64,000 nucleotides of DNA from Candidatus Poribacteria bacterium. Lineage in GTDB: Bacteria > Abyssobacteria > SURF-5. The notes below the pieces were generated by a model that was not told the origin of the DNA, did not search any database, and saw nothing but the letters and a program-made list of their open reading frames with translations. This document shows, one piece after another, positions 1,141-50,306 of the stretch. The number at the start of each line of letters is the position of its first letter. The stretch's first letter is position 1. Made by a program: the position numbers and the translations under genes. The stretch spans positions 22,461 through 86,460 of the forward strand of contig JACRIR010000209.1 of assembly GCA_016215705.1 (NCBI GenBank), given 5' to 3'.

Positions 1141-3195
1141 TCATGGATTTCCGGCGGGCACATCGTAAATAAAAATGGAATAGCCGAGAACTTTCCTGGG
1201 TTTCAGCTTCTTGAGCCAGTCGTGGCAGTGTGGGTTGGCGAGATAGAGATTCTGGAGATAGGTGGCGCTTACAGCCCAGACGCCGGCAGAAGGCTCGCAA
1301 CCATTGAGGTCGGCGTTGCTAAGGCCATAATACTCGAGCACGCCCCGGGGACCGAAATACTTTATCTTCACGTCCCGGATTCTGTTTTCCTGCAAGTAGT
1401 TCATGAGATCGTTCAGATTCTGTCCCCAGTCGAGATTTGAATCCACAAGATATTTGTATCCTTTACTCGGCCCGCCGATCATCTCATTGAAGTATGCAAG
1501 ATAGTGTGGGTATATCCACGCCGCTGAGCCCGCGTACCAAACACACAGAATCGCGAGCGCTCGTTTCCATCGTTTGGATTCAAAGGAGGCAACCTTCCCG
1601 GCAAAAATGCAAAGGAGTGGAATCAATGGAAGGATGTATCGGATGCCTATGTTTATCCGAGATGGCAGGGAGAAGAAACCGATCATGATCAGGATTGAAA
1701 ACAAGAGGAAACGTTCGTCAAATGTCCCCTTCCCCCCTTTGCCAAAGGGGGACGAAATGGAGTTCTCCTTTACAGAAGGATGAATAGTCGACTCCCTCTT
1801 TGCAGAGGGGGGAACAGTCGAGTCGCTATTTACAAAGCAACGAATGGCCGGGCTGCTCTTTACAGAGGGAGGAATAGTGGAGCCCTGCTCTGCAGAAGAG
1901 GGGACAACCTTGTCTTGTGGGCAGCCTTCTTGACTCCCCTTATGCAAAGGGGGGGAGGGGGGATTTGGAGAACAGGCTCTCTTTCCTCCTTTTTCAAGAG
2001 AGAATAATTTGCTGAGTGGTCGGCTCGATTTCAGGCTCGCCCCGGCAGCCGCAACCAGGCATATGATAAACGGAATCGGAGTCTTGATGAGAAAAGCCAC
2101 CCAGTAGAAGTACCACCAGCCCGTTCGCGAGATTTCTCCAAACAGGAAATTGTCTTTCCACCCTTTTGCTGCCGCGAGCTGTGTATAAATTCCAAGGATG
2201 TATGAATATGCGGGAATGCGAATGCCACGCAAGGCCAGCGCATCGACTGCCTGCCAAAAAGGTTTTTCGGCGACCAGCCTCTCTGCCTGCGGTTTCAGCC
2301 ATTGCGGCATGAAGGGGGTTCCAAACTGGAAGCCGTAACCAGCCCAGACAACACAGGAAGCTATAAGTAAGATCAGCAGGAGGCATAGTAAATCCCCCCT
2401 CCCCCCCTTTGCAAAGGGGGGTAATGAAAACCTGATTCGGAGGGGGATTGCCTTTTCCACTCTCTTCAAAGGTGTCCCTGTTTCCTCTCCTCGCAAAGGT
2501 TCCCCTGTTTCTCCCCTTTGCAAAGGGGGGGAGGGGGGATTTACCAGCCGGAACAAGATAACTTCCAACAACAGAATCGGAATCAGAATGAGTCCCGTGA
2601 ACTTCGACAAAAGCGCGAGACCCAACGCCATGCCCGTAAGAACCATTCGCACGGCTGAAGGCGCTTGGAGGTATTTGTGAAATGAGTACAGCGCCAGCGT
2701 CATGGTGAACGCAAGCAGCATATCAGGCGTGGCAAGCTTACAGTGTGCGAGGATCGCCGGGCAAAGGGAATATAAAAACAGGGAAACCAGCGCTGCGCCG
2801 GAACCATAAATCTCTCTTCCCCAACGATACACCAGGAGCCCCAGCAGCGCCGAGAGAAAGACGAACGGAATGCGCGTAAGGAACATCATCAGGCGGGGAG
2901 ATTGGCCGGATTCGAATATGAGCGATGGGCCTATATAGCGGCGGTAGACGTATTCCTTGTCCTCGAATCTGTCGGGATCGAGTTTCAACGGCAGGAGAAG
3001 AAGGCTGTTGACGTAATAGGGAAGCGGCGGATGCAATTGGAGCGCCACAATCTCCCAGTTCCTGGTTTCCAGCAACTGCCGGCCAATACCGATATAACTG
3101 GGCTCATCCCACGTGAGCGACGCGCGCCGCATGCTGCCCACCGCAAGCGCGAGGTGAATTGCCAGTAGCGCGGCAACTGCGAGGCGGGTTCTCAT
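1141..3195 (-). CDS. GT39/PMT-like membrane glycosyltransferase with two in-frame repeat insertions
   Basis: This is an integral membrane GT-C enzyme of the dolichyl-phosphate-mannose mannosyltransferase/ArnT type, expected to move a sugar from a polyprenyl-phosphate donor onto a periplasmic acceptor. The acidic motif of the first periplasmic loop is visible (SLTWDEPSYIGIG), followed by about ten hydrophobic helices. The C-terminal domain has the HYLAYFNE and VDSNLDWGQN motifs usual in this family. The frame also extends 15 codons upstream to 3240, but those codons lie in the flanking repeat array. I therefore start at ATG 3195, directly before the signal-anchor MRTRLAVAALL. Two loops are enlarged by proline/glycine/lysine-rich stretches encoded by repeat elements (2390-2543 and 1721-1966), yet the frame stays open. 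Without them the protein would be about 550 residues, closer to the family norm. The acceptor is unknown. Confidence 0.85.
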   Translation of the reverse strand: MRTRLAVAALLAIHLALAVGSMRRASLTWDEPSYIGIGRQLLETRNWEIVALQLHPPLPYYVNSLLLLPLKLDPDRFEDKEYVYRRYIGPSLIFESGQSPRLMMFLTRIPFVFLSALLGLLVYRWGREIYGSGAALVSLFLYSLCPAILAHCKLATPDMLLAFTMTLALYSFHKYLQAPSAVRMVLTGMALGLALLSKFTGLILIPILLLEVILFRLVNPPSPPLQRGETGEPLRGEETGTPLKRVEKAIPLRIRFSLPPFAKGGRGDLLCLLLILLIASCVVWAGYGFQFGTPFMPQWLKPQAERLVAEKPFWQAVDALALRGIRIPAYSYILGIYTQLAAAKGWKDNFLFGEISRTGWWYFYWVAFLIKTPIPFIICLVAAAGASLKSSRPLSKLFSLEKGGKRACSPNPPSPPLHKGSQEGCPQDKVVPSSAEQGSTIPPSVKSSPAIRCFVNSDSTVPPSAKRESTIHPSVKENSISSPFGKGGKGTFDERFLLFSILIMIGFFSLPSRINIGIRYILPLIPLLCIFAGKVASFESKRWKRALAILCVWYAGSAAWIYPHYLAYFNEMIGGPSKGYKYLVDSNLDWGQNLNDLMNYLQENRIRDVKIKYFGPRGVLEYYGLSNADLNGCEPSAGVWAVSATYLQNLYLANPHCHDWLKKLKPRKVLGYSIFIYDVPAGNP
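1721..1966. repeat. Inverted-end repeat element inserted in frame (copy 2, ~245 bp)
   Basis: The element is bounded by inverted G/C-tract ends. The left end runs C-rich into TTTGCCAAAGGGGGA (1731-1752). The right end is CCCCTTATGCAAAGGGGG followed by GAGGGGGGATTT (1936-1965). Between them lies a degenerate tandem array of about 30-bp units. On the minus strand these translate as imperfect peptide repeats of the kind PPSVKxxSTI (PPSVKSSPA, PPSAKRESTI, HPSVKENSI). The whole element lies inside the glycosyltransferase gene, in a loop between membrane helices, and introduces no stop on the coding strand. Confidence 0.8.
2390..2543. repeat. Inverted-end repeat element inserted in frame (copy 1, ~154 bp)
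   Basis: The ends are near-perfect inverted repeats: AAATCCCCCC followed by a C tract and TTTGCAAAGGGG at 2390-2421, mirrored by CCCCTTTGCAAAGGGG, a G tract and GGATTT at 2513-2543. The interior holds degenerate units that read on the minus strand as PPSPPLQRGETG, EPLRGEETG, TPLKRVEKA and LPPFAKGGRGD. It sits in a membrane-protein loop with the coding frame kept open. PPFAKGG-type peptides are a familiar sign of widespread dispersed repeats of this kind in bacterial genomes. Confidence 0.85.
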
Positions 3196-3328
3196 GTCAT
3201 TCCGGGACCATTTGGTGTCATTCTGAGTCCTCGGTGTCACATTCTGAGCCCTTTGGTGTCATTCTAGCCCTCGGCGTCACATTCTGAGCCCTTCGGTGTC
3301 ATTCTGAGCGAAGCGAAGAATCTCCTTT
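3195..3328. repeat. Tandem ATTCTGAG-type repeat array, left flank of GIY-YIG gene
   Basis: Five units of about 19-22 bp, each built on GGTGTCA(CA)TTCTGAG separated by short CCCTC/CCCTT spacers, run from 3195 to the terminal unit CATTCTGAGCGAAGCGAAG (ending in AATCTCC near 3328). The array contains the dispensable N-terminal extension of the glycosyltransferase frame and the last ten codons of the GIY-YIG gene (3299-3328). Its inverse lies at 3626-3694. Confidence 0.85.
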
Positions 3329-3613
3329 CTCACACCAGCCATTGCTTAGGTCTTCCCATCGGGGGTTGACCGCTTCGATCAAGGCCATCTTCTTTGCTCG
3401 CAGCCAGCCTTTGATTTGTTTTTCACGCGCGATAGCTGCCTGAACGTCATCGGTTTCTTCGAAGAATACGAGGCGGGTGATATTGTATTTCTTTGTAAAA
3501 CCGGGCACGAGTCTTTCCTTGTGCTCGTTCACTCTTCTAACCAAATCACCAGTTACGCCCGTGTACAGACACCGTGATTTGTTGGTCATTATGTAAACAT
3601 AATAACGCTTCAT
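3299..3613 (-). CDS. Single-domain GIY-YIG nuclease, repeat-flanked
   Basis: This 104-residue protein is almost entirely one GIY-YIG nuclease domain (UPF0213/YhbQ-like group). VYI in YYVYIMTNK stands for GIY and YTG in CLYTGVTGD for YIG. The catalytic-type Arg is in DLVRRVNEHK, and the acidic helix FEETDDVQAAIAREKQIKGW and the NPRW tail are typical of the group. Such proteins use a divalent metal to cleave DNA; cellular targets are mostly unknown. The last ten codons (EKGDSSLRSE) are encoded by the terminal repeat unit, so the stop codon itself comes from the repeat. No strong ribosome binding site precedes ATG 3613. The gene is bracketed by inverted copies of one repeat family and may be mobile or mobilise those repeats. 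The domain call is secure; the biological role is inference. Confidence 0.88.
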   Translation of the reverse strand: MKRYYVYIMTNKSRCLYTGVTGDLVRRVNEHKERLVPGFTKKYNITRLVFFEETDDVQAAIAREKQIKGWLRAKKMALIEAVNPRWEDLSNGWCEKGDSSLRSE

Positions 3614-3625
3614 TGGAGTGCAAGA

Positions 3626-3694
3626 AGAGATTCTTCGCTTCGCTCAGAATGACACCAGAGGGTTCAGAATGATATTTTGCGCTCAGAATGGCAC
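3626..3694. repeat. Inverted right flank of GIY-YIG gene
   Basis: GATTCTTCGCTTCGCTCAGA (from 3629) is the reverse complement of the terminal unit of the left array. It is followed by two more degenerate inverted units (TTCAGAATGA near 3663 and GCTCAGAATGGCAC at 3681-3694). The nuclease start codon is about 15 bp inside this arm. Confidence 0.85.
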
Positions 3695-23850: not shown

Positions 23851-24428
23851 AGCATTCAGACACACGGATTCAAGCGGGCAAGCGATGGGAGTTGCCACCC
23901 CCTTCAAGTTGTCTTCTTTGAGCCTCGACGATGAATAAACGGCATGTCTCTGCGAACATCAGACCATCACGACTTTCGATGGAATGTTTGACCCATACTA
24001 GTGCCTTCGGTAAAATCACACTGTAAGGACAGCCCTGCTGCGGCTACTCGGTTTCTCATAATGGCCGTGCTCACAAGGTTAAGTGGGAATCTCTTACTGG
24101 GTTACGGAATCGCAGGCCTCCGCTCCAGCGATTCCTTGACATCGGAATTTTTGGTGTGATAACATCAGGCTTCAGAACGCAACGGCGGTGGCGCGGAGGT
24201 GCGCTCCTCGCCCCGCCGATTACTTTTGGTGGAGTTAGTTGGCGACTGTGGTATCAATGTCGTCGTGCGGGATGTTTGCCGTACCAAGGTTGTCATTCTG
24301 AGCAAAGCGAAGAATCTCGGGGGAAATCGTTCAATATGCTCCTCAAAGAGGATTCTTCGCTTCGCTCAGGATGGCGGTGAGGACGTTGGTCTCGCATATC
24401 CCAATAGTCTAGGATACAGGCAAAACAA
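23851..24428. other. 578-bp spacer with hairpins and a repeat element
   Basis: No convincing gene. It contains a hairpin GGAATCGC/GCGATTCC (about 24106-24135), a possible -35/-10 pair (TTGACA 24136-24141, then TAACAT 18 bp on), a GC-rich hairpin near 24190-24220 and the inverted repeat element at 24292-24375 just before the dehydrogenase. Confidence 0.55.
24292..24375. repeat. Nuclease-free miniature copy of the GIY-YIG flanking repeat
   Basis: GTCATTCTGAGCAAAGCGAA (24292-24311) and its inverse GATTCTTCGCTTCGCTCAGG (24351-24370) face each other around about 40 bp. The arms match those bracketing the GIY-YIG gene at 3299-3613, here with no coding capacity between them. Confidence 0.85.
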
Positions 24429-50241: not shown

Positions 50242-50276
50242 TGTTCACCGATTCGCGCGCAAGCAATGTCCGAAAC

Positions 50277-50306
50277 GTCATTCTGAGCCAAACGAAGAAT
50301 CTCCTG
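50277..50306. repeat. Half copy of the GIY-YIG flanking repeat
   Basis: ACGTCATTCTGAGCCAAACG followed by AAGAATCTCC: one arm only of the ATTCTGAG family, without the inverse partner, 65 bp before the AsmA-like start. Confidence 0.75.

Follow-up and report, generated by a model that had tools for sequence, protein, structure and literature searches.

We investigated a small nuclease gene and the hairpin repeats that bracket it in a 64,000-nucleotide stretch of DNA (hereafter, the window) from Candidatus Poribacteria bacterium (GenBank assembly GCA_016215705.1, contig JACRIR010000209.1, positions 22,461 to 86,460). The repeats are repetitive extragenic palindromic (REP) elements, present singly and as inverted pairs (REPINs), and their cognate enzyme is probably this small GIY-YIG nuclease rather than a REP-associated tyrosine transposase (RAYT) of the HUH type. 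This reading is based on the association of gene and repeat, the specificity of nuclease clades for repeat classes, the covariation of the hairpin stems, the dispersal of the 28-nt unit, the co-occurrence of nuclease and repeat among genomes, and insertion polymorphism of the gene-bearing unit.

The repeat unit is 28 nt long and reads [C/T]GTC-ATTCT-GA-GCGNAGC-GA-AGAAT-CTC. In the genome of origin (5.47 Mb, 270 contigs), there were 228 copies of its core with up to three mismatches and none in the reversed control, next to a single GIY-YIG match. Thirty-five of these copies, when aligned, had sharp edges, with conservation running from C/TGTC to CTC, and all four close neighbor pairs among the sampled loci were inverted with their tags outward. 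A sharply bounded repeat with inverted pairs is the anatomy of REPs and REPINs, and the nuclease gene is the occupant of the spacer of one REPIN in its own genome. The inverted arms around the gene (3280-3337 and 3614-3671) are 58 nt long and 86% complementary. The initial annotation had described a 104-residue single-domain GIY-YIG gene with an inverse array 13 bp before its start, and both points hold (the 13 bp are positions 3614-3626). It was also right that the gene ends inside the repeat, although it is the last eight codons and the stop, not the last ten codons, that lie within the REP unit at 3297-3324. The five units on the left and three on the right are real as well: half-units starting at 3195, 3216, 3235, 3257, and 3275 precede a full unit from 3297, and the right arm consists of a full unit and two degenerate half-units. 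Further copies exist in the window, as had been noted, but they are not two solo copies: at the same threshold the core occurred five times where none was expected, namely in the two arms, in one inverted pair (24293/24351), and as one single (50278). Because the family has REP and REPIN anatomy, with 228 sharply bounded 28-nt copies and one gene-bearing site, the gene-free copies did not arise from the nuclease unit by internal deletion, contrary to the earlier proposal.

A scan of genome contigs recovered 516 relatives of the nuclease, from which we retrieved 80 loci spanning more than 15 phyla; a homolog was present in 25 of the 60 sampled genomes. Of the 97 homolog loci scored, 76 had a C/TGTC hairpin in the 150 bp upstream of the gene, 77 had one in the 150 bp downstream, and 62 had both; the background was 47 of 819 intervals (5.7%) taken from the same loci at distances of over 700 bp. 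The recurrence of gene and inverted repeats, the presence of flanks at most homologs, and the variation of unit number between copies thus agree with what the initial annotation had proposed. The 5' and 3' matches exceeded every shuffled control in 82 of the 97 loci, and the two arms of one locus were more alike than arms from different loci. Where both flanks were scored for orientation, 50 loci had inverted arms with outward tags, 19 had direct arms, 12 had inward tags, and 3 had the remaining order. In many of these genomes REPs are numerous and lie between genes, so one could suppose that, acting as terminators or supercoiling elements, they flank small genes by chance; however, the contrast between 78-79% at the gene and the 5.7% background, together with class specificity inside single genomes, makes such hitchhiking extremely improbable.

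The nuclease clade matched the repeat class. Repeats were classed by structure alone into class A (GA/GA internal loop), class B (continuous stem, in the dRS3-like form ATTCCCGC..GCGGGAAT or as ATGCTGAA..TTTCAGCAT), and class C (ATTGC stem), and nucleases by the residues after the catalytic Glu (GWxR, WxRxWK, or xGSR), these motifs having been defined after inspection. GWxR-type nucleases were found with class A repeats in 82 of 82 cases (ten of which were assigned by eye, the regular expression having missed them), the WxRxWK type with class B in 12 of 12, and the xGSR type with class C in 13 of 13, giving 107 of 107 in total. This held inside single genomes with two clades, each of which was accompanied by its own class: G022 (L041 with B, L062 with C), G095 (L145 with A, L168 with C), and G091 (L146 with A, L170 with B). 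Few changes of repeat class were needed on the nuclease tree, and none of 200-500 shuffles was equally low. Within the class A part of the tree, L123 and L126 have a WxRxWK-like motif and a continuous-stem repeat, so that motif and repeat look to have switched together, independently. Cultured taxa agreed by eye, namely Neisseria gonorrhoeae, Azospirillum lipoferum, Shinella, Novosphingobium, Sphingobium, S. meliloti (with CCTC-tag variants), and Planktothrix. The nuclease gene of N. gonorrhoeae has dRS3 on both sides; CGTC REPs likewise flank the GIY-YIG gene in A. lipoferum and Shinella, and variants do so in Sphingobium and Novosphingobium.

We searched the nuclease loci with a stem-agnostic pattern (TGTC N5 GA N7 GA N5 C) that required no pairing, which gave 200 matches and none in the reversed sequence. 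The outer N5 segments were fully paired in 167 of the 200, whereas re-dealt partners paired in 39 on average and 52 at most, and the stems themselves varied (ATTCT/AGAAT, ACCCT/AGGGT, ATTCC/GGAAT, ATTTC/GAAAT, ATACT/AGTAT, and more). A GNA loop was present in 179 of the 200 matches, and class B loops were frequently GNNA. GNA and GNNA loops on two or more G-C pairs form extraordinarily stable, nuclease-resistant DNA mini-hairpins, and d(GCGAAGC) melts at 78 C (PMC4686876). Since GNA sits on one strand and TNC on the other, this asymmetry suggests that it is the TGTC strand that is recognized. Because the hairpin covaries by structure and has its stable GNA loop on one strand only, these features would speak for structured DNA, and not a homing site, as the substrate. 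For class A DNA, folding energies were no better than those of shuffles; the nearest-neighbor energy model presumably gives no credit to GNA loops or tandem G.A pairs, and we used this result neither for nor against the hairpin.

Half-REPs, which consist of the tag and the first stem strand in the same orientation, were found upstream of 48 of the 405 REPs at GIY-YIG loci, often 20-22 nt off; they were often tandem, and their spacer was specific to the locus. The rate expected from simple counting was well below 1%, and a matching test on the other side of the REPs gave what its looser criterion would yield by chance. The breakpoint of the half-REPs is the internal GA loop or the inner hairpin, which would fit recopying after a stall or a cut at the inner hairpin. 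In a separate observation, made at locus L193 (G071 C11, 14230-14670 and 23150-23720), intergenic gaps in the genus of G071 were composite, with REPs beside other repeats (CCCCCTTGTAAAGGGGGATGGGG, ACCTTGCGGGTGCTCCGCGCACGGCGAA, TTCAAGAACGCGA..).

Within one phylum (77 genomes), the median number of class A repeats was 10 where the genome had a class A-like nuclease (n = 9) and 0 where no homolog was found (n = 56; p = 3e-6), and genomes with other nuclease clades had no excess (p = 0.35). The association appeared again in 60 relatives (p = 1.7e-4; own genome excluded, p = 1.4e-3). Class C repeats, which were counted with a gapped pattern that requires GGCAATCC and hence undercounts (it replaced an overly specific pattern with a fixed inner hairpin), showed enrichment in class C genomes (p = 6e-5) and none in A-only genomes (p = 0.55). 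Another reading is that Y1/HUH transposases of the genome (RAYT or IS200/IS605-like) mobilize the REPs in trans, with the GIY-YIG gene as a passenger: RAYT-REP systems are established (PMC2817692, PMC8266576), and the genome of origin has three Y1_Tnp matches. However, no repeat core with up to five mismatches was found at these three loci (two of which are cut by contig ends), Y1_Tnp presence did not predict repeat number in the 60 relatives (p = 0.19), and two repeat-rich genomes had no Y1_Tnp. In addition, the tag is CGTC/TGTC and not GTAG, Di Nocera et al. saw no tyrosine transposase gene with CGTC REPs at its flanks (PMC3733652), and exact matching of clade and repeat is not expected of a passenger. 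A RAYT as the driver of these repeats is unsupported, and mobilization in trans seems to us very improbable.

The gene-bearing unit is polymorphic among related genomes. In A. lipoferum 4B, the space between sufB and sufC (617 bp) holds the gene, flanked on either side by two REPs; in A. oryzae, A. ramasamyi, and strain B510 (approximately 94% identity over the operon), the sufB-sufC gap is 87-129 bp long and holds neither gene nor REP. Gene-lacking orthologous sites, for which the initial annotation had asked, therefore exist; the empty alleles are REP-free, and their intergenic sequences have diverged. Likewise, Shinella WSC3-e has the unit, and Shinella H4-D48 is without it at the corresponding site. 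At the locus in the window, an aldolase-DHQS pair is kept in two genomes (G001 and G002) with no GIY-YIG gene or REP adjoining, and the other neighbor is not conserved. Between the congeners G069 and G071 (approximately 64 kb of synteny), five of six REP sites were in G071 only and the sixth was a decayed remnant in G069, in intergenic DNA too diverged to place the REP junctions. A GIY-YIG copy on C48 of G071 is absent from the syntenic site of G069, but it adjoins 5 kb of other extra DNA. Multiple copies also occurred within genomes: C1 of G069 carries three nuclease units in exact tandem with a 562-bp period (634587-636032), and two loci of one deltaproteobacterial genome (L108 and L114) have approximately 590 bp in common at 89% identity, including both arms, in unrelated surroundings. 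Within each of these two copies, both arms share the loop base. Their homology stops at about 1352 and 1938 in a further imperfect inverted sequence, GCGYTAACTTAA, which lies approximately 20 nt and 55 nt beyond the REP arms and may be an older host element or the true ends of the unit. Because protein identity between phyla is 60-75% and the tree mixes phyla, the sequences indicate horizontal spread of the nuclease. The pair L110/L112 was considered as a recent transfer and rejected, as L112 has Ns at its left boundary and may be mis-binned. The sufB-sufC gap, which holds a GIY-YIG unit in A. lipoferum, holds a DUF559 nuclease gene on a plasmid of Sphingomonas parapaucimobilis (L259, 1451-1934); it is flanked by CCCCTCCCCTTCAGGGGAGGGG / CCCCTGAAGGGGAGGGG repeats and is possibly a parallel system of small nuclease and repeat.

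The main rival is a homing nuclease that exploits REPs: the REPs would spread by other means, and the nuclease would cut REP or REPIN sites and be copied in by break repair, which would always place its gene between REPs of a class that it can cut. GIY-YIG is a fold of homing endonucleases (I-TevI, Z 6.1), class matching and co-occurrence would be expected equally, and REP-rich genomes without the gene exist. In a 2025 study of Legionella evolution, intergenic regions beside GIY-YIG genes, which are labeled homing endonucleases, were among the mutation hotspots, and nearly half of the long-range junctions joined hotspots (PMC12308824). On the other hand, the flanking REPs are whole units and not halves of one cut REP, the relatives of A. 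lipoferum are REP-free at the site of the gene (in intergenic sequence that has diverged), and the nuclease has no separate DNA-binding domain. Furthermore, since the segment common to L108 and L114 extends past both arms, arms and gene moved together. We therefore regard a homing-type parasite as unlikely.

The 104-residue protein is, by its sequence, a member of the GIY-YIG superfamily and a predicted nuclease. Seven residues were invariant among 45 homologs (Y7, Y17, G19, R27, H31, E64, and N83), and these include the catalytic set of the superfamily (Tyr, Tyr, Arg, Glu, Asn) as Y7, Y17, R27, E64, and N83. An AlphaFold model (mean pLDDT 90.4) had its best fold match in UPF0213 BH0048 (Foldseek E 5e-5 to UPF0213; VIA Z 7.7 to 1zg2), followed in VIA-align by the structure-selective nucleases HIGLE and SLX1 (Z 6.2-7.1; SLX1 6.2-7.0) and then by I-TevI (Z 6.1); VIA Z values below 8 are modest, and the family assignment rests on PF01541. 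No phage homologs were found, and PHROG and PADLOC gave no match. That HIGLE and SLX1 are, besides UPF0213, the top fold matches would suit an SLX1-like host role in resolving or policing REP hairpins, the gene moving with the REPs because proximity is favored and not causing their spread. The distribution of the gene is patchy, its tree indicates horizontal spread, some sites are empty, and several copies may occur in one genome, all of which looks mobile and not like housekeeping; we consider such a host role quite improbable.

If the nuclease is the cognate enzyme of the REPs, their spread could be envisaged as follows. The REP is a hairpin behind a C/TGTC tag, and its commonest layout in the clade of the window's nuclease has a 5-bp outer stem, then a GA/GA internal loop, with GCGNAGC as the inner mini-hairpin; two inverted REPs make up a REPIN, whose spacer, in one or a few copies per genome, holds the nuclease gene. 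The nuclease may recognize the folded hairpin, either in single strands at replication forks or in a cruciform, and nick at or near it. Repair of the break, or of the freed strand, would then copy a REP, a REPIN, or the gene-bearing unit into a new intergenic site, and the tandem half-REPs might be by-products of copying that stalled or aborted at the inner hairpin. Hairpin cutting combined with break repair or freed-strand capture is the simplest proposal for REP spread.

Several points weigh against this proposal. Strand transfer is not known for GIY-YIG enzymes, so the integration step is without precedent in the family. Invasion of pre-existing REPs by the nuclease also fits the co-occurrence and the specificity, and the co-occurrence tests were uncorrected for phylogeny. 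The canonical arrangement with both arms and outward tags was found in only 50 of 120 loci, with 19 direct. Target-site duplications were not evident in Azospirillum or at L108/L114, where no pair is close enough for certainty. In addition, neither GIY-YIG nor Y1_Tnp was detected in the REP-rich genomes G015 (54 copies) and G033 (30 copies); because of these genomes, either REP upkeep is independent of the gene or the gene was lost or missed in a draft. As an observation of its own, the copies in G015, a 99% complete genome, are of a variant hairpin (CACTCTGAGCGAAGCGAAGAGTC) and form an orphan REP population.

Among known systems, the REPtrons of RAYTs are the nearest functional parallel. In both, hairpin REPs, which occur dispersed in high copy number and as inverted pairs, bracket the enzyme gene, of which a genome has one or a few. 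The two enzyme groups of RAYTs are matched to interrupted and perfect palindrome REPs (PMC8266576), and the nuclease clades are likewise matched to interrupted and continuous-stem REPs. Membership fails on enzyme and tag: the bracketed enzyme here is an unrelated GIY-YIG nuclease without HUH or tyrosine chemistry, and the tag is C/TGTC and not GTAG. Gene-lacking orthologous sites, which we found here, are a further difference. The repeats are placed in, or close beside, the CGTC-tagged REP super-family (dRS3, CGTC-1; PMC3733652), with which they share the unpaired C/TGTC tag, the stem starting with AT, and, in classes B and C, the CCA-type tail; exactly such repeats flank the nuclease genes of A. 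lipoferum and Neisseria. Class B has the unbroken 8-9 bp stem, 4-5 nt loop, and CCA tail of the super-family, and its repeats are dRS3/CGTC-1 REPs, whereas class C combines a CCA tail with an interrupted stem, and class A of the window has a GA/GA internal loop, a triloop, and a CTC tail. In the 2013 account of CGTC REPs, no dedicated transposase was known and tyrosine transposase genes were not flanked by them (Di Nocera et al. 2013, PMC3733652), unlike here, where each class has a cognate GIY-YIG gene. The protein shares its fold with single-domain GIY-YIG proteins of the UPF0213 type (PDB 1zg2) and with SLX1, but it is only 26-29% identical to 1zg2, is without an SLX4-type partner or RING domain, and is flanked by hairpin REPs. 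Similarly, free-standing GIY-YIG homing endonucleases (I-TevI, Seg type) are small GIY-YIG genes that act as mobile elements, but the nuclease here lacks a DNA-binding domain after the catalytic domain and sits between whole repeats at unrelated sites. In the literature searched, which left out preprints and most subscription papers, we found neither the class A repeat sequence nor a prior paper linking GIY-YIG nucleases and REPs.

We give about an even chance to a broader claim, that GIY-YIG nucleases are the dedicated spreaders of the whole CGTC/TGTC REP super-family, which would reach from dRS3 in Neisseria to hairpins in Chloroflexi, Planctomycetes, and Cyanobacteria, and that they read single-stranded GNA/GNNA mini-hairpins, with the motif after the Glu (GWxR, WxRxWK, or xGSR) setting the hairpin class. 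If the nuclease does spread REPs, two unrelated folds, HUH and GIY-YIG, would have come independently to spread hairpin repeats, with a parallel subdivision into interrupted and perfect forms. It would be a transposase-free, nuclease-only spreading of non-autonomous DNA, and would account for an abundant repeat that is misread as protein ends. A natural role for the GCGNAGC mini-hairpin, so far studied mainly as a chemistry and aptamer tool, would be notable in itself. The matching of clade to repeat also names an enzyme for each class of CGTC-type REPs, including Neisseria dRS3, which were left without a mobility enzyme in 2013 (PMC3733652). The features of the window are listed in Table 1.

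Table 1. Nuclease gene and copies of the repeat in the window
Feature	Position	Strand	Remarks
GIY-YIG nuclease gene	3299-3613	-	104 aa, single domain; PF01541 E 9.4e-15
Full REP unit TGTCATTCTGAGCGAAGCGAAGAATCTC (downstream arm)	3297-3324	+	
Full REP unit, upstream arm of the gene	3627-3654	-	inverse of the other arm, tags outward
Five tandem half-REPs (tag and first stem strand)	3195-3296	+	outer side, before the full unit; period 18-22
Two degenerate half-REPs	3655-3694	-	outer side of the upstream arm
REPIN, gene-free inverted pair	24291-24377		24291-24318 (+), 24348-24377 (-); spacer 29 bp
Solo REP	50276-50303	+	CGTC tag

Two neighborhoods contained further features. On a plasmid of Planktothrix agardhii (p1; L249), the GIY-YIG unit has an MmeI-type restriction gene on one side and drmA of DISARM on the other. 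In the window, positions 1141-3240 on the minus strand encode a 699-residue membrane protein with in-frame low-complexity inserts (NPPSPPLQRG.., SLPPFAKGGRGDL..), which resemble another dispersed repeat family inside coding sequence. Its listed GTG start falls inside the half-REP array; translation probably begins instead at an ATG (MRTRLAV..) just within the edge of the array.

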